Below, piece after piece: positions 12,722 through 32,164 of a stretch of 32,164 bases of DNA. The number at the start of each line of letters is the position of its first letter. Position 1 is the stretch's first letter. A program made the position numbers and the translations under genes. Origin of the DNA: a virus; the IMG/VR virus record IMGVR_UViG_3300002231_000335, positions 12,770 to 44,933 of that record. One strand, 5' to 3'. The notes under the pieces are model-generated. The model worked only from the letters and a program-made list of their open reading frames with translations. It had not been told where the DNA came from and did not search any database.

Positions 12722-12759
12722 CTCCGCGCTATTTACTGAGCATAGCATATTATTCAACG
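12722..12759. repeat. Left copy of perfect 38-bp inverted repeat
   Basis: The sequence reads on the minus strand CGTTGAATAATATGC followed by TATGCTCAGTAAATAGC and GCGGAG. It is an exact reverse complement of 15702-15739. It contains a promoter-like pair pointing left on the minus strand (TTGAAT, 16 bp, TAAATA), toward the end of the endolysin gene. Similarity to the right copy continues imperfectly for about ten bases outward (AGAGATCCAC against AGAGGTACAT). Confidence 0.85.
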
Positions 12760-14153: not shown

Positions 14154-14268
14154 GTGCGGCAAAACAGCTAGCAAATGAATCGCGATCAGAACGGCAGGAG
14201 AAAACGCCTAGCTTGCGGGTGTTAATCTTTCACAGAAAAAGAATCTTTTTTTATCCTTGCTCGGGGGG

Positions 14269-14298
14269 TTGAATAATATTCAAGAGGCGTGCTAAAAT
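14269..14298 (+). promoter_or_regulatory. Plus promoter with perfect palindrome over -35
   Basis: The -35 TTGAAT (14269-14274) and -10 TAAAAT (14293-14298) are 18 bp apart. The perfect 15-bp palindrome TTGAATAATATTCAA covers 14269-14283. The predicted +1 falls on the GTG at 14305. It is divergent to the ArdC promoter, about 115 bp away. Confidence 0.7.
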
Positions 14299-14304
14299 AG
14301 CGCC

Positions 14305-14418
14305 GTGGATCCGATCCTAAAAAAGGATCCCCAAAAAGTGAAAGCCCCGGTCCATGCGTCGCCGGAAAAGGACCAACTAAACCGGGGGCGAGGGCGCGGG
14401 GCTCTCAGAGAGTTGTGA
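14305..14418 (+). CDS. Candidate leaderless small protein, 37 residues
   Basis: A GTG lies seven bases after the -10 box TAAAAT, exactly where transcription should start. It opens a frame of 37 codons: (M)DPILKKDPQKVKAPVHASPE then KDQLNRGRGRGALREL. The product is very basic. The same transcript could instead be a structured RNA. AGCCCCG at 14343-14349 pairs with CGGGGCT at 14397-14403, GGTCC pairs with GGACC inside, and the two GGATCC copies can pair. Transcription beyond the stop runs antisense to the minus gene ending at 14453. The coding call rests on start position only. Confidence 0.35.
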   Translation: MDPILKKDPQKVKAPVHASPEKDQLNRGRGRGALREL

Positions 14419-15701: not shown

Positions 15702-15739
15702 CGTTGAATAATATGCTATGCTCAGTAAATAGCGCGGAG
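15702..15739. repeat. Right copy of perfect 38-bp inverted repeat
   Basis: Exact reverse complement of 12722-12759. It holds a plus-strand promoter-like pair (TTGAAT at 15704-15709, 16 bp, TAAATA at 15726-15731) pointing right, toward the 3' ends of the minus operon that finishes at 15748. Both copies therefore point outward from the enclosed 2.9-kb module. A three-codon frame, ATG TAC CTC TAA, begins at 15740, just after the expected start of transcription. Confidence 0.85.
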
Positions 15740-18620: not shown

Positions 18621-18896
18621 ATGGCTGTACTAAAAACAGAGGGCCGCGTTGCGCTTCGCGGCTGGCTTTCAAAGCATGAGCGATCTGTTAGTTGGCTCGC
18701 TCGAATGCTTGGAGTGAGCACAACAACCATACATAGCTGGCTCTCTGGGAAGAGTAGGCCGCTTCACTTTCACAGGGAGTGCATCGAAGATCTAACCCGA
18801 ATCGCTTCGTGTGAATGGTTTACAAAAAAGGAACTTGCGATCATGAATGAATCCAAGAAGCGGATCGCAAGCTATCACAGAAATAACCACCAATGA
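18621..18896 (+). CDS. HTH transcriptional regulator (leaderless)
   Basis: The 91-residue protein has a helix-turn-helix of Cro/CI type near residues 13-45 (LRGWLSKHERSVSWLARMLG, VSTTTIHSWLSGKSRPLHFH). The second and third helices are around SWLARMLGVSTTTIHSWLSG. It lies divergent to the exonuclease operon with inverted repeats in the 85-bp gap, so it may control that operon and itself. The start codon is at the predicted +1, as in lambda cI transcribed from PRM. It overlaps the next gene by ATGA. Confidence 0.8.
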   Translation: MAVLKTEGRVALRGWLSKHERSVSWLARMLGVSTTTIHSWLSGKSRPLHFHRECIEDLTRIASCEWFTKKELAIMNESKKRIASYHRNNHQ

Positions 18897-20333: not shown

Positions 20334-21245
20334 TTACTTATTTGCAGCCGCGTCCTTCTTGGCTTGGTTGTTCGGGTGAACCCTGCGATCCGTTGTCTTA
20401 CCCATGGCAGTATCGGCAACCATCAACTTGATCTCAGCGTTGAAGAGACGGCGCAAGAAGTCTTGATCCCGGTCTCCCAGCTTCTTGGAGCAAGCAACAA
20501 GCTCATTGCGTAGCTTGCTGATCGACTCGTCAAGGCTATCAGCTTGAGCGTCGGTGAGTTCAGCGCGCAACCGACCGCCCTTGCTTCCCTTGCCGCTGCT
20601 CTCTCCCTCTCCCTCACCGCTGTTGCGCTTGAGCGTCTTGCGGTACTTGGAAACCATCACGTTGCTCACTCCGATATGCTTCGCAATGTCGCGATCCGAG
20701 AACTTGGAAAACTCGGGATGTGTGAGGAAAGTGCGAACGGCTTTCTTCTTGTCGTCGTTGCTTCGGGCTAGGCCGTGGGTGCTGTTAGCACCTAGTGAGT
20801 GAAAGAGCGCTTCTTTCTCGCCACCTGGCAGAACCTTGACCGTGACCGTAACGTCGCCGTTTTCTTTGAGTGCGTGCAAGCGGTGGAAGCCATCGGCCAG
20901 GATGTACTGATCGCCATTTGCGAAAACATCAATAGGGGGAAACTTGATCCCGTCTTGCATGAGGGTCGCGTATTCTTTCGCCTTCCGCTCACTGATCTTT
21001 TCCCGTGCCTGCATCTTGCTTTCATCGGCGACGATCTTGGCCATGGGAACATTTTTTTCAACCTTACCCGCGCCGATCTTCATGATGGGGGGAGCCTTCG
21101 GGGCTTTCTCCTTCTTGGCGGTTGCGGGCTTTGCCTTGCCGTCCTTCTTGGGAGCGCTAGCGGGCTTTGCGGCGGGCTTTGCGGCGGGCTTTGCAGCGGT
21201 AGCGGGGGAGGTGGTTGCGGGTGCGTTTGCGGTTACATTGGTCAT
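20334..21245 (-). CDS. ParB/Srx-domain protein
   Basis: The 303-residue protein starts with a 55-residue low-complexity tail rich in Ala, Pro and Lys (TAAKPAAKPAAKPASAPKKD). The ParB N-terminal fold follows: VPMAKIVADESKMQAREKIS, YATLMQDGIKFPPIDVF and YILADGFHRLHALKENG, where DGFHR corresponds to the family's GxRR/DGxHR box. Then comes an HTH-like segment (FSDRDIAKHIGVSNVMVSKYRKTL) and a charged Gly/Ser linker. Such proteins bind DNA, and related phage forms can have nuclease activity or regulate early genes. ParA is not seen, so partition is uncertain. Confidence 0.82.
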   Translation of the reverse strand: MTNVTANAPATTSPATAAKPAAKPAAKPASAPKKDGKAKPATAKKEKAPKAPPIMKIGAGKVEKNVPMAKIVADESKMQAREKISERKAKEYATLMQDGIKFPPIDVFANGDQYILADGFHRLHALKENGDVTVTVKVLPGGEKEALFHSLGANSTHGLARSNDDKKKAVRTFLTHPEFSKFSDRDIAKHIGVSNVMVSKYRKTLKRNSGEGEGESSGKGSKGGRLRAELTDAQADSLDESISKLRNELVACSKKLGDRDQDFLRRLFNAEIKLMVADTAMGKTTDRRVHPNNQAKKDAAANK

Positions 21246-22225: not shown

Positions 22226-22441
22226 TCAGCAATCGTAGAGAGCAAGGGCCCGAAGGGCCCGGCGACGCTCACTATCAAGGATCCCCCGGTTGCGCCGTGA
22301 AAAGGTTTCGTCCTTTGACTGGCGATCAAGGACTTTCACAAGATCCTTGAGCCAGTGGCACCCCATGCCGTTGTCGGCGTCAGAGATTGCCATTTGAACG
22401 GCGTTGCAGGCGGAGTCGATAACTTTTTGCTCGGTGAACAT
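22226..22441 (-). CDS. Hypothetical protein, 71 residues
   Basis: The helical protein reads TEQKVIDSACNAVQMAISDA, then GCHWLKDLVKVLDRQSKDE and a basic end with SERRRALRALALYDC. The family is unknown. It is preceded within a few bases by a strong palindrome-containing promoter whose predicted start gives almost no leader. It marks the left edge of the origin-like region. Confidence 0.6.
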   Translation of the reverse strand: MFTEQKVIDSACNAVQMAISDADNGMGCHWLKDLVKVLDRQSKDETFSRRNRGILDSERRRALRALALYDC

Positions 22442-22448
22442 GAGATAG

Positions 22449-22476
22449 ATTGTATTGAAGAATCTTCAACGTGCAA
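22449..22476 (-). promoter_or_regulatory. Promoter with perfect palindrome in spacer (gene at 22441)
   Basis: On the minus strand TTGCAC, 16 bp, TACAAT, the best -10 of the set. The spacer contains the perfect palindrome TTGAAGATTCTTCAA (22455-22469). The -10 ends eight bases before the ATG, so the message would be leaderless or nearly so. Confidence 0.75.
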
Positions 22477-22907
22477 GCCCTCATTTGAGTTTTTTTCAGG
22501 GCGTTCTCAGAAAAAGGAACCGGGTGCGCGTAGCAGTAACCGTGCCACAATCGGCCCGAAAAACGTGTTTTCTGCGATGGCGGAACTCCTATGTTTTAAG
22601 GGGTTTTGAGCGTTGCGATTGCGACGGCAGCTGTTTTAAGCCATTGAATATTATTTCATGTTAACAGTTAACTCATTTCGGCGAATCGCTTGACACCCGC
22701 TAGGGCCCCTCAGAGGCCCCCTAAGACGTTTTGACCCCACTAAGCGGTACTCACCCGTTCTCGCGCTGAAAACGCGAATGGCGCTGCCATACATTTTTCG
22801 CAGCTGTTTTTAAGTGGTTTCAGCACTTGCTAGGACACGGTGTGACACACCACAAAAAAAGCCAAAAAAAGAGCTTGTGTTCGGTTGCATCCTGTAGTTA
22901 GCCGCAG
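22477..22907. other. Non-coding stretch left of the iteron array
   Basis: I see no convincing gene here. It holds a degenerate palindrome (TTGAATATTATTTCA near 22644), a GTTAACAGTTAAC inverted repeat near 22661, and a direct repeat GCAGCTGTTTT(T)AAG near 22628 and 22799. There is also a TCGCG/CGCGA hairpin near 22763 and the palindrome GGTGTGACACACC near 22838, followed by two A-rich runs. Short direct and inverted repeats next to iterons fit an origin region. Confidence 0.5.
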
Positions 22908-23062
22908 TCTCACAAGGTGCCCAAATCTCTCACAAGGTGCCCAAAGCTCTCACAAGGTGGGCGGCTTGCCTACAAGGTGCGAGGTTTGGTGACACTGTAG
23001 GTGCTTGCCTACATGGTGAGACATGCTCTCACTGTGTGGGTGTTGTCCTACATGGTGGGAGC
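22908..23062. repeat. Iteron-like repeat array, candidate replication origin
   Basis: TCTCACAAGGTG begins at 22908, 22928 and 22948, and GCCTACAAGGTG at 22968, so the first four are spaced exactly 20 bp. More diverged units follow at about 22988 (GGTGACACTGTAG), 23007 (GCCTACATGGTG), 23027 (TCTCACTGTGTGG) and 23046 (TCCTACATGGTG). The core is CWMCAWGGTG. Such head-to-tail arrays bind initiator proteins on plasmids and phages. An ATTCTCGAGAAT palindrome follows near 23076. The flanks carry divergent transcription units, as expected for an origin. Confidence 0.72.
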
Positions 23063-23141
23063 TTGTGGGAGCGTGTATTCTCGAGAATTACAGTGAGGGT
23101 GGATGTGGTCGGATGTAGGCAAGAGTGGGAGAAAACGGGCG

Positions 23142-23194
23142 TTGAAGTTTCTTCAATTAGGGGGTTGAATAATATGCGAAGCGCGTGTTAGAAT
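23142..23194 (+). promoter_or_regulatory. Tandem palindrome and promoter right of iterons
   Basis: A perfect palindrome TTGAAGTTTCTTCAA (23142-23156) is followed by -35 TTGAAT (23165-23170), 18 bp, and -10 TAGAAT (23189-23194). The second site has only one good half (TTGAATAATATGC). The -10 is followed by AGCGCC and GTG, as at 14299-14307. Confidence 0.68.
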
Positions 23195-23200
23195 AGCGCC

Positions 23201-23278
23201 GTGACTGCGGCTCTTCTCATAAAAGAAAAGGGCCGGGGTAGATGGTCGCTTTTCTGCTCCCTCCCCCTTGACTGTTGA
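23201..23278 (+). CDS. Candidate leaderless microprotein, 25 residues
   Basis: The GTG is seven bases after TAGAAT, matching the predicted +1, and opens (M)TAALLIKEKGRGRWSLF then CSLPLDC. The stop overlaps the next operator. A non-coding leader RNA is equally possible. I list it because the promoter and start geometry repeat those at 14305, not because of any protein similarity. Confidence 0.25.
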   Translation: MTAALLIKEKGRGRWSLFCSLPLDC

Positions 23279-23295
23279 AGAATATTCAAGACAAT
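23268..23295 (+). promoter_or_regulatory. Promoter with perfect palindrome in spacer (gene at 23303)
   Basis: TTGACT (23268-23273), 16 bp, GACAAT (23290-23295). The spacer is G plus the perfect palindrome TTGAAGAATATTCAA. It has the same geometry as the minus-strand set. The ATG is eight bases after the -10, though AGGAGG also lies between them. Confidence 0.72.
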
Positions 23296-23302
23296 AGGAG
23301 GC

Positions 23303-23500
23303 ATGAAAAACGAAAACTTCATGGGTTGCGATGTTCCTTTTTCCGGCAACTTCGTTCTTGACCGTTACCGGCTTGAGGCACGAATCAGGGTGCTAGGTGA
23401 GCGCAAGGAATCGCACGGGCTATCAGAGAAGGGCGCTGAGATTCTTTCCTACTGCGAAATGCACTTGCAGGACATAAAAGATATTTACTACCGCGATTGA
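23303..23500 (+). CDS. Small early protein, 65 residues
   Basis: It reads KNENFMGCDVPFSGNFVLDR, then YRLEARIRVLGERKESHGLS, EKGAEILSYCEMHLQDIKDI. It is soluble and mixed alpha/beta, family unknown. AGGAGG lies two bases before the ATG, unusually close for a Shine-Dalgarno, and the promoter geometry suggests the message may begin at the ATG. It lies first after the origin region. Confidence 0.6.
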   Translation: MKNENFMGCDVPFSGNFVLDRYRLEARIRVLGERKESHGLSEKGAEILSYCEMHLQDIKDIYYRD

Positions 23501-23577: not shown

Positions 23578-24756
23578 ATGATTAACACTCTCCACACCGT
23601 AAACACCTGGCATCTTTCTTCAATCATCGACCGCGTTGAAAAGCTCAACAAGAAGGGCCGCAAGCTAGGCGTTGAACAACTTGTTGAGATCGTTTGCGGC
23701 GCTCGCAAGATTGAACGCAACGACGAAGGCAAGATCACCGGGGATACAACGGAGATCACTTTCATCGGTTCCGCTCCCAAGTGCAACGGCTTTGAGATGC
23801 TAGCCACGATCCGTCACTTGCCCGGCGGCGATATGATTCACCAGTCAAACGGCAAGCTCGACTTTTCCGAGTATGTCAACAAGGGCAGCTTTTGCGACCA
23901 TTGCAACACGAAGCGCAACCGCAATGAGACTTTCATCCTCTCAACTCCCGAAGGCGACACGATCAGGGTCGGCCGCAATTGCCTTGCCGACTTTATCCGC
24001 TCGGATGACGCGGCGATCTTCGTTCTTTACAGCACCGCGCTTGATACTCTCGTAAAGTTTTTTGAGGACGACGATTATTGCGGCGGCGGTTACGGCGGCC
24101 GGGCAATGTATGCGGCGGATCACTTCTTGGCGGTTGCGGTTCGCTCTATCCGCAAGCACGGTTTCAAGAAGGCCAACCATGAGGACTCAACACGCTCTGA
24201 GGTTTGCGGCTGGTATATTCTTTCCGGCGGTAGCAACAAGACCCCTAACGAAAAGGCATGGTTTGAGGCTCACGCTCCCACCGACAAGGATCACGAAGAT
24301 GCAGCCGCGATCATCGCATGGGGCAAGGCTCTTGAGGCTTCAAACGACTTCTTGAACAATGTGAAGGTTGCCCTAGCTTGCCCCGCTGTTGAGCGTACTG
24401 AGGGGATCCTATGCGCCGCTGCTATGGTTTGGCTCAAGGGGCAGGGGGAGCTTGAGAGCAAGAAGGCAAAGCGCCTATCAGAGCACTTCGGCGAGGTTGG
24501 CACCCGTTATGACTTTGAGGGTCTTGAGGTTGTGAGAACCTACACCATTGAAGGAACCTACGGCGATAAAAACATTGTAACCATGCGGGATAGCGACGGC
24601 CGTTGCATTGTGTGGAAGGGAACAAGCCCCTTTGCACTCGGCTTGGAGACCGGCGACATAGTAAGCGGCAAGGGAACCGTGAAAGAGCACGGTGAGTGGA
24701 AGGACTTCAAGCAAACCGACCTAACGCGCTGCAAGTTCGCTAAGGTTGCCGCCTAA
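23578..24756 (+). CDS. Conserved Cys-rich early protein, function unknown
   Basis: The 392-residue protein is the largest intact gene of the right arm. A central zinc-finger-like element reads SFCDHCNTKRNRNETFILST then IRVGRNCLADFIRSDDA (residues about 102-144), giving CxxC ... C. I recall this CxxC-NxxR-xR-xxTF ... VGxxCLxDF pattern in large phage and plasmid proteins without a known function. The N-terminal part has ITFIGSAPKCNGFEMLATI. The C-terminal 80 residues (EVVRTYTIEGTYGDKNIVTM, GDIVSGKGTVKEHGEWKDF) look like an OB-fold, so nucleic-acid binding is likely. It follows an origin-proximal promoter. Confidence 0.68.
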   Translation: MINTLHTVNTWHLSSIIDRVEKLNKKGRKLGVEQLVEIVCGARKIERNDEGKITGDTTEITFIGSAPKCNGFEMLATIRHLPGGDMIHQSNGKLDFSEYVNKGSFCDHCNTKRNRNETFILSTPEGDTIRVGRNCLADFIRSDDAAIFVLYSTALDTLVKFFEDDDYCGGGYGGRAMYAADHFLAVAVRSIRKHGFKKANHEDSTRSEVCGWYILSGGSNKTPNEKAWFEAHAPTDKDHEDAAAIIAWGKALEASNDFLNNVKVALACPAVERTEGILCAAAMVWLKGQGELESKKAKRLSEHFGEVGTRYDFEGLEVVRTYTIEGTYGDKNIVTMRDSDGRCIVWKGTSPFALGLETGDIVSGKGTVKEHGEWKDFKQTDLTRCKFAKVAA

Positions 24757-24897: not shown

Positions 24898-25218
24898 ATG
24901 GCAAATTCCAATCACCCCGAAGTGCCAGCGATCAAATTGCTTGATCAATGGCTCGAAAAAAAAAGAATGAGCGCGCCTCGATTCGCAAAGCTAATCCAGC
25001 GAGAACCGCAAATGGTCCATGCTTGGCGATACCGAAGGGCGCACCCTAAAACGTTGGACGTGTTAGCGATTGCTGAGATCACAGGGATCAGCGCCGAGAA
25101 GTGGTTGAGCGCTACCGAAAAGCGACGGCTAAGAAAGATCAAATTAGACTTCCACAACGAAGCAAAAGTGCAAGAGCAAGAGCAAGAAGCACGGGAAAGC
25201 AAAAGAGCAAACGCATGA
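24898..25218 (+). CDS. HTH transcriptional regulator (leaderless candidate)
   Basis: The 106-residue protein has a helix-turn-helix at residues 10-60 (IKLLDQWLEKKRMSAPRFAK, LIQREPQMVHAWRYRRAHPK, TLDVLAIAEITGISAEKW). The layout resembles phage Cro/CI-like proteins with a helical, charged C-terminal tail (EEAKVQ-type repeats of Gln and Glu). No ribosome-binding site is seen, and the ATG is at the predicted +1. The promoter carries the recurrent TTGAA half sites, so this is a good candidate for the protein that reads them. It overlaps the DUF1353 gene by 4 bp. Confidence 0.75.
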   Translation: MANSNHPEVPAIKLLDQWLEKKRMSAPRFAKLIQREPQMVHAWRYRRAHPKTLDVLAIAEITGISAEKWLSATEKRRLRKIKLDFHNEAKVQEQEQEARESKRANA

Positions 25219-28722: not shown

Positions 28723-29121
28723 ATGGCGAACGAAGAAACAGTTATTCAGCAAGACATTCGTTTGGACGTTCAAAAGGCGTTTGCCGGTGTTCGTCTTTTC
28801 CGAAATGAATGCGGAACTGCAATCGTAAAAGACAATGAGGGATCGAAGCCGCGCTACGTTAGATACGGACTATCAGTTGGATCGCCCGACTTGGTAGGCT
28901 GGCGCACTATCACAATCACCTCACAAATGGTTGGCAAAAAGATTGCTCAATTCGTAGGGTGCGAAGTGAAGACCGAAGAAGGCTACCGGAAGAACGGCAA
29001 GCATGAGAAGCGGCAACAGAAATGGATCGATCTCATCAATCAAATGGGGGGCCTCGCATTCAAGGCACGCTCACCAGAAGAGGCGATCCAAAAACTAAAC
29101 CCCGATCAGGTTGGAGTCTGA
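28723..29121 (+). CDS. VRR-NUC domain nuclease
   Basis: The 132-residue protein fits the stand-alone VRR-NUC family of PD-(D/E)XK nucleases. Visible elements are VQKAFAGVRLFRNECGTA, YGLSVGSPDLVGW, then FVGCEVKTEEGYRKNGKHEK and RQQKWIDLINQMGGLAFKA. Catalytic residues would be the E in RNECG, the D in GSPDLVG and the EVK. Such phage enzymes are predicted structure-specific nucleases or junction resolvases. A start five codons earlier (28708, after GGGGGTA) is equally possible. The gene sits between helicase and primase. Confidence 0.82.
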   Translation: MANEETVIQQDIRLDVQKAFAGVRLFRNECGTAIVKDNEGSKPRYVRYGLSVGSPDLVGWRTITITSQMVGKKIAQFVGCEVKTEEGYRKNGKHEKRQQKWIDLINQMGGLAFKARSPEEAIQKLNPDQVGV

Positions 29122-29173
29122 TCAGGGTTTAGAAAAGGACGACTCAGAAGAACCACCAACAGAGTCACGAGGC

Positions 29174-30297
29174 ATGAATAATAGCGAAAGACAGAACAGA
29201 GTCAACTTGATCATTGATACTCTCAACTCACTAACGGTTGAAGAGTTTTTGAAAGTTGCGCAAGTAGACGGGCTACGAACAAGCGGCGGCAAGTGGCGCG
29301 GCAAGTGCCCGATCCACGGTGGCGATTCTAAGGCGTTCACCGTCTACCAGAAGAGCGCCGGGATCTTCTACAATTGCCCTTCAAGTTGTGGGAGCGGCAA
29401 CACGATCAAACTGATCGCAAAGCTCAACAATCTTGAGACGAAGGGCCGCGACTTTATCAGCGTGATCAACTTGGCAGCGCAACGCATGGGGCTCCCTGGA
29501 CTTGAGGGCGGTGAGCTTACGGCGCAACAACTGGCACTGATTGAAGAGCGCAAGAAGCGGTCGGCAATCGTGAAGGCCCAGAAGGAAAAAGAAGAGCTTG
29601 AGCAAGCGGTGAAAACTCACCGGGTGTTGATGCATCTCTTCATGAGCTTACAGGTGAGTGATAAGGTTGTTAGTTACTTACAAGGGCGGCAACTGGTAGC
29701 GGATGCGGCCGATGCAAAGGTTCTCGGCGTTCGCTCTTGGGACTCTCGATGTGTTAGCGATCTGTTAGCTCACTTTGACCGTGAGACATTGGGGCAAGTG
29801 CTAGGCCCTGCCGACAAGCTAGAAGAGCAGATCGGAAAGCGCCCCCTGTTGCTCTTCACTTTCGTTGCGAATCAATGCACCGGTTTCCAGGCTCGAAGCA
29901 TTGACGACGATTGCGAAAAGCGATGGCGGTACATGAGCCGGGGAAAAACCGCTTGCGGTTTCTTCGGTGGTGAACAGTTAGCGGAACCGGGCCCGGTTGT
30001 GATAGTCGAGGGGATGACCGACACGATCATAGGGCGGCGCTATCCTGAGTTTGGCGCTGAGTTTTTCGATGGTGAGATCCCGACCGTGATAGGCAAGCCG
30101 GGGCGGGAAAGATTAGCAAGCAACTAGCTCAAGCTCTCAAGGGGCGGCATGTTGCTTTGGTTTTCGACGGCGACAAGGCGGGCATTGAAGGTGCTAGGCA
30201 GTCGGCGTGCGTCGTTCGTGAGTTTGCGGCTTCGGTGCAGTACGCAAACACGGACGGCGATCTATGTGATGAGATTGTGGGTGCTCTTAATGGTTGA
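29174..30297 (+). CDS. DNA primase with CHC2 zinc finger and TOPRIM (one frameshift)
   Basis: The start at 29174 gives NNSERQNRVNLIIDTLNSLT. The zinc finger is WRGKCPIHGGDSKAFTVYQ, then IFYNCPSSCGSGNTIKLIAK (C, H, C, C). A helical linker follows, then the TOPRIM fold with the Glu motif VVIVEGMTDTIIGRR. The frame breaks at the GGGG run near 30104. With one G added it reads GKPGAGKISKQLAQALKG, HVALVFDGDKAGIEGARQSA, which has the TOPRIM DxD pair, and ends at 30297. The protein would be about 374 residues and synthesises RNA primers. It overlaps the SF3 helicase gene by 8 bp, so primase and helicase are translated together. Confidence 0.87.
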
Positions 30298-31717
30298 TTC
30301 AAAAGTTCTGAGCTTCGGCAAGAAGCTAAAAGGGGAAGGCAAAGGACGCTAAACTAGGCACCCCGCCACACACTGAAGATGAGCAAGGCAAGTACGTTGC
30401 TCGATGGTTGAAAGGGAGCCACCTACAGATCAGGGAGTGGGGGAAGTGGCTGCACTGGAACGAAGTATGCTGGGAGCTGGACCATTGTGAGATCGAAGCA
30501 CGCAAAGCGACTCAAGAAGCGTTAGCAGAGTGTTATGAGTTAACACTTAACAGCACGATTGATCCGAAGTCGGTTGAGTACAAGTTGAACGACTATCGCC
30601 GGGTTGGTTCCGGCAAGTTGAGAGCATCGTTAGAGCTTAGCTGAGTTGCAACTGAATGAGACTCACGAAGCGTTAGGGACCCACACCGATACTCCTACCA
30701 GTGAAGAACGGGACGCTTGAGCTGCGCTCGGGTCTGCTTCGGCAATCAATGCCCGGCGATCTCATGCTTAACTCATCACCCGTTACCTATGACACAGAAG
30801 CAAAGTGCTCTCTTTGGGATGCGTTCTTGGCAGCCGTCCTACCCGACGAACAGGTCAGAAAGTTTTTCCAAACGATGGTCGGTTACTGTCTTACCGGCGA
30901 CGTTGGAGCACAGAAATTTTTCTATCTTTACGGCGAGGGAGCGAACGGCAAGAGCACGGCCATGGATGTGATCCAAGCCCTGTTAGGAAAGTATTATACC
31001 AACGGCTCACCATCGCTGATCGTTCAAGGTAAAGACGAGCACGCAACGGCAACCGCCGACCTTCATGGTAAGCGCGTTGCGGCGTTCTCTGAAGTAGCAG
31101 AAGGCGCGAAGTTGAATGAGGTTTCTATCAAGCAGCTAACGGGTGGTGAGACGATATCAGCGCGAAGAATGCGCGAAGACTTTTGGGAGTTCTCACCAAC
31201 TCATAAGGTGATCATTTCGGGCAATCACAAGCTCTCTGTGAGCGGTAGCGATAACGCAATTTGGAGACGGCCCGTGCTGATAAAGTTCCCGGTTCAGATC
31301 CCGAAAGAGCGGCGCGATCCTCACCTCACGGCGAAGCTCAAAAAGGAACTTCCTGGCATTCTCAATTGGGCTCTTGAGGGCTCGATGCGTTACTATAACG
31401 AAGGGCTCAAGGTGCCGAAGGTGTTGCAGTCCGAGACCGACAAGTACCGCGATGAATCAGACTGGTGTCAGGCGGTGATAGATGAGGAGTTTGTTATTGA
31501 CGAGGAAGCCGACACTGATCGCGCTTTGGTCATGGGCAAGTTCAAGGCGTTCTTTGAGCGCAACAGTGAGAAGCCCAAGAGCGCCATGGCAGTCTATGCG
31601 GCGCTTGAGCGCAAACACTTCCACACGATTAAAAAGAAAGGGCGGCGCTATATCAGGGGGCTCACTTTGAAGAGTTCAATGGCCGCAGCAGAAGAGGAGT
31701 TTCTAAATGATTACTGA
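30290..31717 (+). CDS. SF3 replicative helicase, D5/P4-type (frameshifted)
   Basis: The gene starts at the ATG overlapping the primase stop. Extra bases near 30340 (AAA), 30641 and 30690 break the frame. The parts join as GKKLKGEGKDAKLGTPPHTE, WLKGSHLQIREWGKWLHWNE, ELAELQLNETHEALG and ILLPVKNGTLELRSGLLRQ, the last being the family's D5_N-type region. The helicase core is intact: Walker A LYGEGANGKST near 30932, Walker B-like VAAFSEV, and the SF3 motif C region HKVIISGNHKL. The C-terminal winged part follows to 31717. It would unwind the origin as a hexamer. Iterons at 22.9 kb are a plausible target of it or an unknown initiator. Confidence 0.85.
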
Positions 31718-31934
31718 GACGATTGTTAGTTACGAACAGGAATTGAGACAACGGCTAGGCATTGAGATCCCAGAAGGAGATCGGCGCATCAAGTGGAGCG
31801 CTCAAGACTCTGTAAACGTGATGACATTGCGCAAAAGAGGACTGCCGATCCGAACGATTGCGGACGTGCTTAGGTGCTCGACTCGCATGGTTCAGGACGT
31901 GCTAAAGGGCAAGGCGTTAGATCTGGATCGTTGA
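31707..31934 (+). CDS. Small HTH protein
   Basis: The 75-residue protein overlaps the SF3 helicase by 11 bp. It has a C-terminal helix-turn-helix (VNVMTLRKRGLPIRTIADVL, RCSTRMVQDVLKGKA) of the type seen in resolvase and sigma-factor C-terminal domains. The front reads YEQELRQRLGIEIPEGDRRIK. It could bind DNA as a small regulator. It stops directly before another copy of the recurrent palindrome. Confidence 0.65.
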   Translation: MITETIVSYEQELRQRLGIEIPEGDRRIKWSAQDSVNVMTLRKRGLPIRTIADVLRCSTRMVQDVLKGKALDLDR

Positions 31935-31952
31935 ATGATATTCAGCTATAAA
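31931..31952 (+). promoter_or_regulatory. Palindrome and -10 before last gene
   Basis: TTGAATGATATTCAG (31931-31945) is followed by TATAAA (31947-31952), the same order as in the other promoters. The -35 (GGATCG) is poor, so an activator may be needed. A leader of about 20 bases with AAAAAGGAC precedes the ATG. Confidence 0.55.
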
Positions 31953-31977
31953 CCACAAGGAAAAAGGACAACAAATT

Positions 31978-32164
31978 ATGACCACTAACAGAACACTAGC
32001 AGAACAGATCGTTGCAAAAGTTGAGTTCAACTTGAACGATAGGCGGGGGCTCAAGTGGAGCAACCTTGATGATGAGATCCTTGATGAGCTTCGGGCTTCG
32101 ATGGTTGCAATGGTCGAGGGTGAGATCAGCAACGCCGGGAGCGGGGATCTTTCGGTCCACCTCA
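31978..32164 (+). CDS. Hypothetical protein, 3'-partial
   Basis: The start ATG at 31978 gives TTNRTLAEQIVAKVEFNLND, RRGLKWSNLDDEILDELRAS, MVAMVEGEISNAGSGDLSVH and remains open at the window end. No domain is recognised in these 62 residues. It is controlled by a palindrome-type promoter. Confidence 0.6.
   Translation, partial: MTTNRTLAEQIVAKVEFNLNDRRGLKWSNLDDEILDELRASMVAMVEGEISNAGSGDLSVHL

Follow-up and report, generated by a model that had tools for sequence, protein, structure and literature searches.

What purpose does a row of evenly spaced short repeats serve in the non-coding DNA of an uncultured phage? The row lies in a 46,537-bp virus record, within the window analyzed here, a stretch of 32,164 nucleotides (bases 12770-44933 of the record) to which coordinates refer unless another contig is named. 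Its eight units lie within positions 22909-23059, and a preliminary description had proposed that they are the iterons of a replication origin. Judged from its sequence, the array is very likely a row of binding sites for protein dimers. That this lineage-specific array of dimer sites is the origin of phage replication is a tentative reading, possible but no better than that, with a regulatory cluster as its nearest alternative.

The first four units are the most alike. CACAAGGTG occurs at 22911-22919, 22931-22939 and 22951-22959, and TACAAGGTG at 22971-22979. The 20-bp spacing described earlier for these units is exact, but the short units had been placed 3 bp too low: they begin at 22911, and the start previously given, 22908, fits a longer repeat, TCTCACAAGGTG, and not CACAAGGTG. 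To their right, where about four diverged units in register had been described, we found four, at steps of 19-20 bp (Table 1). From the first center to the last (22915 to 23053), the steps are 20, 20, 20, 20, 19, 20 and 19 bp, giving a mean period of 19.7 bp. This corresponds to about 1.9 helical turns, which is no whole number, and because the record shows signs of indel errors, the 19-bp steps may be partly errors of the sequencing record.

All eight units share A(-3), C(-2), G(+2) and T(+3) without exception, and these bases form a dyad core, AC-N3-GT. C(-6) is kept in seven units and G(+6) in six, and the overall pattern reads C-T-Y-A-C-N3-G-T-G-S-G. Since core positions on both sides are invariant or kept, the units are near-palindromic dyads, not simple direct repeats. 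Unit similarity falls from left to right along the array. A pair of A7 tracts to the left of unit 1 is, from its sequence, a possible intrinsic bend.

Table 1. Coordinates of the array, its surroundings and the replication and DNA-binding genes (window positions).
Feature	Position	Strand	Details
Array units 1-4	22909-22981	+	CTCACAAGGTGCC (center 22915), CTCACAAGGTGCC (22935), CTCACAAGGTGGG (22955), CCTACAAGGTGCG (22975); exact 20-bp steps
Array units 5-8, diverged	22989-23059	+	GTGACACTGTAGG (center 22995), CCTACATGGTGAG (23014), CTCACTGTGTGGG (23034), CCTACATGGTGGG (23053)
Two A7 tracts, 10 bp apart	22850-22874	.	CCACAAAAAAAGCCAAAAAAAGAGC; about 40 bp left of unit 1; from sequence and repeat report
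Gene-free spacer, 861 bp	22442-23302	.	holds the array; between divergent genes; from sequence and ORF list
71-aa ORF, left neighbor	22226-22441	-	no homologue in G001 or phages
65-aa ORF, right neighbor	23303-23500	+	no homologue in G001 or phages
392-aa ORF, phrog_2319	23578-24756	+	function unknown; absent from G001
Palindrome TTGAAGAATCTTCAA	22455-22469	-	fills the spacer of promoter-like TTGCAC-N16-TACAAT
Palindrome TTGAAGTTTCTTCAA	23142-23156	.	between the array and the next promoter
Promoter-like TTGAAT-N18-TAGAAT	23165-23194	+	TG before second hexamer
Promoter-like TTGACT-N16-GACAAT	23268-23295	+	directly before the gene at 23303
ParB-like protein, phrog_1033	20334-21245	-	about 1.7 kb from the array; 56-59% identical in G001
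Primase, CHC2 zinc ribbon	29111-30127		domain match
SF3 helicase, D5_N and DUF5906	30701-31717		domain matches; about 7.6 kb from the array
75-aa HTH_23 protein	31707-31934	+	directly after the SF3 helicase

The array was tested by plain self-identity; a dyad score was set aside because the dyad pattern was derived from the array itself. Across 22905-23062, self-identity at lag 20 is 0.54, a value matched by 0 of 2000 dinucleotide shuffles, and when only the diverged stretch (22980-23062) is considered, about 0.65% of shuffles (about 0.0065) match its highest value among lags 19-21. Genome-wide, the lag-20 z score reaches 8.0 at the array, whereas none of 200 simulated genomes exceeds 5.2 and the next-best real place reaches 4.9. 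The array is the top non-codon periodicity of the 46.5-kb genome and its only cluster of the unit, and Tandem Repeats Finder detects it too (period 20, score 97). An extension to 22875 or 23113 through weak in-phase half-sites was rejected: the stretch 22980-23125 gave a p of 0.25 at lags 19-21, and that stretch is also rich in GTGGG-like words.

Searches of IMG/VR with the SF3 helicase, ParB-like, HTH and terminase proteins returned one close relative, IMGVR_UViG_3300005600_000038 (48,869 bp; G001), and the comparative evidence is that of this single relative. The two genomes are largely colinear, with protein identities of 75% for the terminase, 67% for the SSB, 48% for an ExoVIII-like protein, 50% for the HTH protein at 24898, 67% for the ResIII helicase, 74% for VRR-NUC, 60% for the primase and 79% for the SF3 helicase. 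Both records begin with AGTTGGTTTCGCGCCC (G000 L002 1-16; G001 1-15), and the last 15 bases of G001 equal its first 15. These shared starts are probably cos-type cohesive ends. G001 is probably a complete genome, since its terminal repeat reads most simply as a real cohesive end, and our record (G000) likely lacks a piece at its right end. Because the ends are probably of the cos type, a circular intracellular form of the phage genome is probable.

The array has no counterpart in this relative. The distance from the ParB-like gene to the HTH gene is about 0.5 kb in G001 versus 3.7 kb here, and the divergent spacer at the corresponding place measures 142 bp. Across the whole genome of G001 we found no chain of units at 19-21 bp, and loose matches to the unit form no comparable array. 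Because G001 is short at this place and has no array anywhere, the comparison indicates that the array and its neighboring ORFs are either an accessory segment of this genome or a loss in G001. Absence from the sole relative, like the left-to-right loss of similarity among the units, would also fit a recent local tandem duplication that has no present function and is decaying rightward. The invariance of AC-N3-GT in all eight units while other bases drift suggests selection for a binding site instead, and we consider such a neutral origin of the repeats quite improbable.

As described previously, the array occupies an 861-bp stretch free of genes; the divergent ORFs on either side of this spacer encode 71 aa (leftward) and 65 aa (rightward). 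The phrog_2319 gene to the right has homologues in large Vibrio phages and other phages. Promoter-like elements face outward on both sides. TTGCAC-GTTGAAGATTCTTCAA-TACAAT, upstream of 22441, reads left into the 71-aa ORF, and the family of the palindrome that it contains, TTGAAGAATCTTCAA, is also present in G001. The spacer of TTGACT-GTTGAAGAATATTCAA-GACAAT, upstream of 23303, contains the palindrome TTGAAGAATATTCAA (23275-23289). More generally, both genomes are strongly enriched in the 15-bp palindrome TTGAA-N5-TTCAA, which in several cases takes up exactly the 16-bp spacing between two promoter-like hexamers. Its core, TGAA-N5-TTCA, occurs 10 times in this genome against 0.9 expected and 5 times in G001 against 0.6 (sites at window 14133, 14270, 15558, 21695, 22455, 23142, 23275, 24843 and 31932; L004 4557, 4641 and 11015). 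From this placement, the palindromes probably serve as conserved operators for a single phage regulator. The array, found in the same spacer as some of them, represents a site type distinct from these operators.

This setting raises the question of whether the array is itself regulatory. A dimeric regulator might cooperatively fill the eight sites and control the two promoters that read rightward (23165 and 23268), or silence the whole divergent region, the array having arrived with an accessory segment (71-aa ORF, spacer, 65-aa ORF and phrog_2319 gene) missing in G001. Dyad sites fit homodimeric regulators, the promoter-like element at 23165-23194 follows the array at a distance of about 105-260 bp, and the array and the accessory genes are present together here and jointly missing in the relative. 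However, the promoter spacers already carry a different, conserved operator. Because the promoters have their own TTGAA-N5-TTCAA sites, the array is not needed to explain divergent promoter control. In addition, eight even sites exceed the need of most operators, and no regulator gene was found next to the array. We therefore regard an operator cluster as somewhat unlikely.

With respect to replication genes, the primase, SF3 helicase, SSB and ParB-like protein that had been reported nearby are all encoded in this genome, but the closest of them (ParB-like) is about 1.7 kb from the array and the farthest (SF3 helicase) about 7.6 kb. Frameshifts split the ORFs of the ResIII helicase, primase and SF3 helicase (at about 27.98, 30.1 and 30.65-30.7 kb of the window). 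Because these three ORFs are intact in G001 and the record contains single-base Ns, the splits are probably indel errors of the record.

The proximity of the ParB-like protein would suit a centromere-like array bound by ParB, serving to keep the genome as a plasmid or to organize its DNA, and a plasmid-like prophage is conceivable, as no tyrosine or serine recombinase was found. A search for a ParA-type ATPase, however, gave zero AAA_31 matches in either genome, and G001 keeps the ParB-like protein, with its HTH segment nearly unchanged, although it has no array. These two observations make a centromere a distinctly unlikely explanation.

Several features, some of them invoked in the preliminary description, speak for an iteron-type origin. 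The eight in-register units exceed chance, their core is invariant, they lie in a gene-free spacer, and the genome encodes an SF3 helicase, a CHC2-type primase and an SSB and has probable cos ends. Against it stands that G001 keeps all recognized replication proteins without an array. The mean period of 19.7 bp, off whole helical turns in a record with probable indel errors, may also count against an origin. No AT-rich unwinding tract was evident, with 80-bp stability around the array at 1.37-1.48 versus a genome mean of 1.459 and the least stable places elsewhere (for example at 31918). The spacer contains no DnaA box (TTATNCACA) with up to one mismatch on either strand, the early-region ORFs scanned include no Rep family member, and no initiator-like gene adjoins the array, its neighbors being the 71-aa and 65-aa orphan ORFs and the phrog_2319 gene. 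Cumulative GC skew, which had been suggested as a check, shows no turning point at the array; because the skew follows gene orientation in this phage, it weighs little either way.

On the reading that we favor, a phage- or lineage-specific dimeric protein would occupy all eight sites side by side, wrapping or bending the array into a single nucleoprotein complex of the kind that lambda O builds on its iterons. Of the purposes that such a complex might serve, the likeliest, though tentative, is the start of theta replication on the circularized genome, with the SF3 helicase and primase being recruited. Since the shared replication proteins work in G001 without an array, only a protein missing from G001 could serve as the initiator; put differently, the conservation of these proteins in an array-less relative means that the array is either read by a protein absent there or is no origin. 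The SF3 helicase is unlikely to be the specific reader, because its C-terminal region, the expected place for a DNA-reading domain, is well conserved in G001. The 75-aa HTH_23 protein, which has no match in G001 or the phage collection, is a candidate array binder or initiator. Further DNA-binding candidates encoded here are the HTH proteins at 18621 and 24898. A more specific scenario, in which a lineage-specific origin was gained together with its own unrecognized initiator and added to a replication machinery that the sister phage runs from another origin, appears improbable; it would amount to an origin swap in an SF3-helicase phage of lytic or plasmid-like habit.

Comparison with known origins shows partial likeness to several. 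In lambda, the iterons to which O binds are imperfect inverted repeats of 19 bp (PMC7466680), and O binds them as dimers (PMC5043065). Like ori-lambda, the array lines up imperfect inverted repeats about 19-20 bp long, with dimer-type sites in a phage that probably has cohesive ends (PMC7466680, PMC5043065), but it has eight units versus four to six in lambda, differs in sequence, and lies outside any initiator gene without an adjacent AT-rich tract; no O-like gene was found. With the iterons of theta plasmids (P1, F, RK2 and pSC101 type) it shares contiguous multiple units in non-coding DNA and a period near two helical turns. Those units are plain direct repeats, whereas ours are dyads with a period of 19.7 bp; moreover, neither a Rep gene nor a DnaA box was found, and 72,556 plasmid records gave no match.

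Like P4 alpha and the PICIs, the phage has genes for a primase and for an SF3 helicase of the D5 type. Gram-negative PICIs carry two iteron sets around an AT-rich stretch, with the ori after pri-rep (PMC6092414), whereas the array is one set without an AT-rich stretch and 7.6 kb from the helicase. In PLE satellites, origin iterons and the DNA-binding domain of the initiator swap together between close relatives (PMC8263062). These RepA_N iterons are, like the array, semi-palindromic and non-coding, and close relatives can carry different origin modules (PMC7145576, PMC8263062). The array differs in that PLE iterons number three and measure about 30 bp, and RepA_N was not found among the ORFs scanned here.

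To place the array in a wider context, two-unit pattern scans were run against IMG/VR (13 viral loci) and 84,980 species genomes (62 genome loci). Matches were inspected at all 13 viral loci and at the two genome loci with several matches, and part of the other 60 went through a three-unit chain test. The inspected two-unit matches, from IMG/VR and the species genomes, included no array of the same kind, in scans whose exact patterns may overlook diverged arrays. Two-unit matches in a viral contig (L027 3000-3059) and a Herbinix genome (L056 1850-1950) proved to be unrelated 10-bp tandem repeats, with CACAAGGT or TACAAGG, and a third (L037) was a bacterial simple repeat. Matches to the three-unit pattern look like 21-bp protein-coding repeats. 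Distant SF3-helicase relatives (L005-L017) have no strong non-codon array, the periodic signal in L011 being a GC-rich coding repeat. A blastn search with the spacer gave no match in the phage collection or the plasmid records, and an Rfam scan found nothing.

These scans also bear on whether the array is read by a host protein instead of a phage protein, as might be supposed from the fact that no phage-encoded reader was recognized. A similar non-coding array was not seen among the bacterial genome matches examined, and we consider this explanation highly improbable.

An origin at this locus would provide a defined replication start in a group of uncultured SF3-helicase phages and would show that phages can trade origins yet retain one replisome. 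An operator cluster would instead represent a second layer of control beside the conserved TTGAA-N5-TTCAA operators. Under either reading, the locus adds one more phage site array with an unrecognized reader and leaves general ideas unchanged.

Further sequence elements were observed elsewhere in the two genomes. Window 31918-31998 and L004 10993-11073 each rank among the most unstable DNA of their genome; both lie just downstream of the SF3 helicase and have a TGAA-N5-TTCA palindrome inside. The 44-bp promoter element at the 23165 site, TTGAATAATAT...TARAATAGCGCCGTG, is present in two copies (window 14264-14307 and 23160-23203), and a perfect inverted pair of 38 bp, TTGAATAATATGCTATGCTCAGTAAATAGCGCGGAG, is related to it and occurs at window 12722-12759 and 15702-15739. 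Some of these copies are followed almost directly by a hairpin-like stretch, an arrangement that possibly yields very short transcripts.
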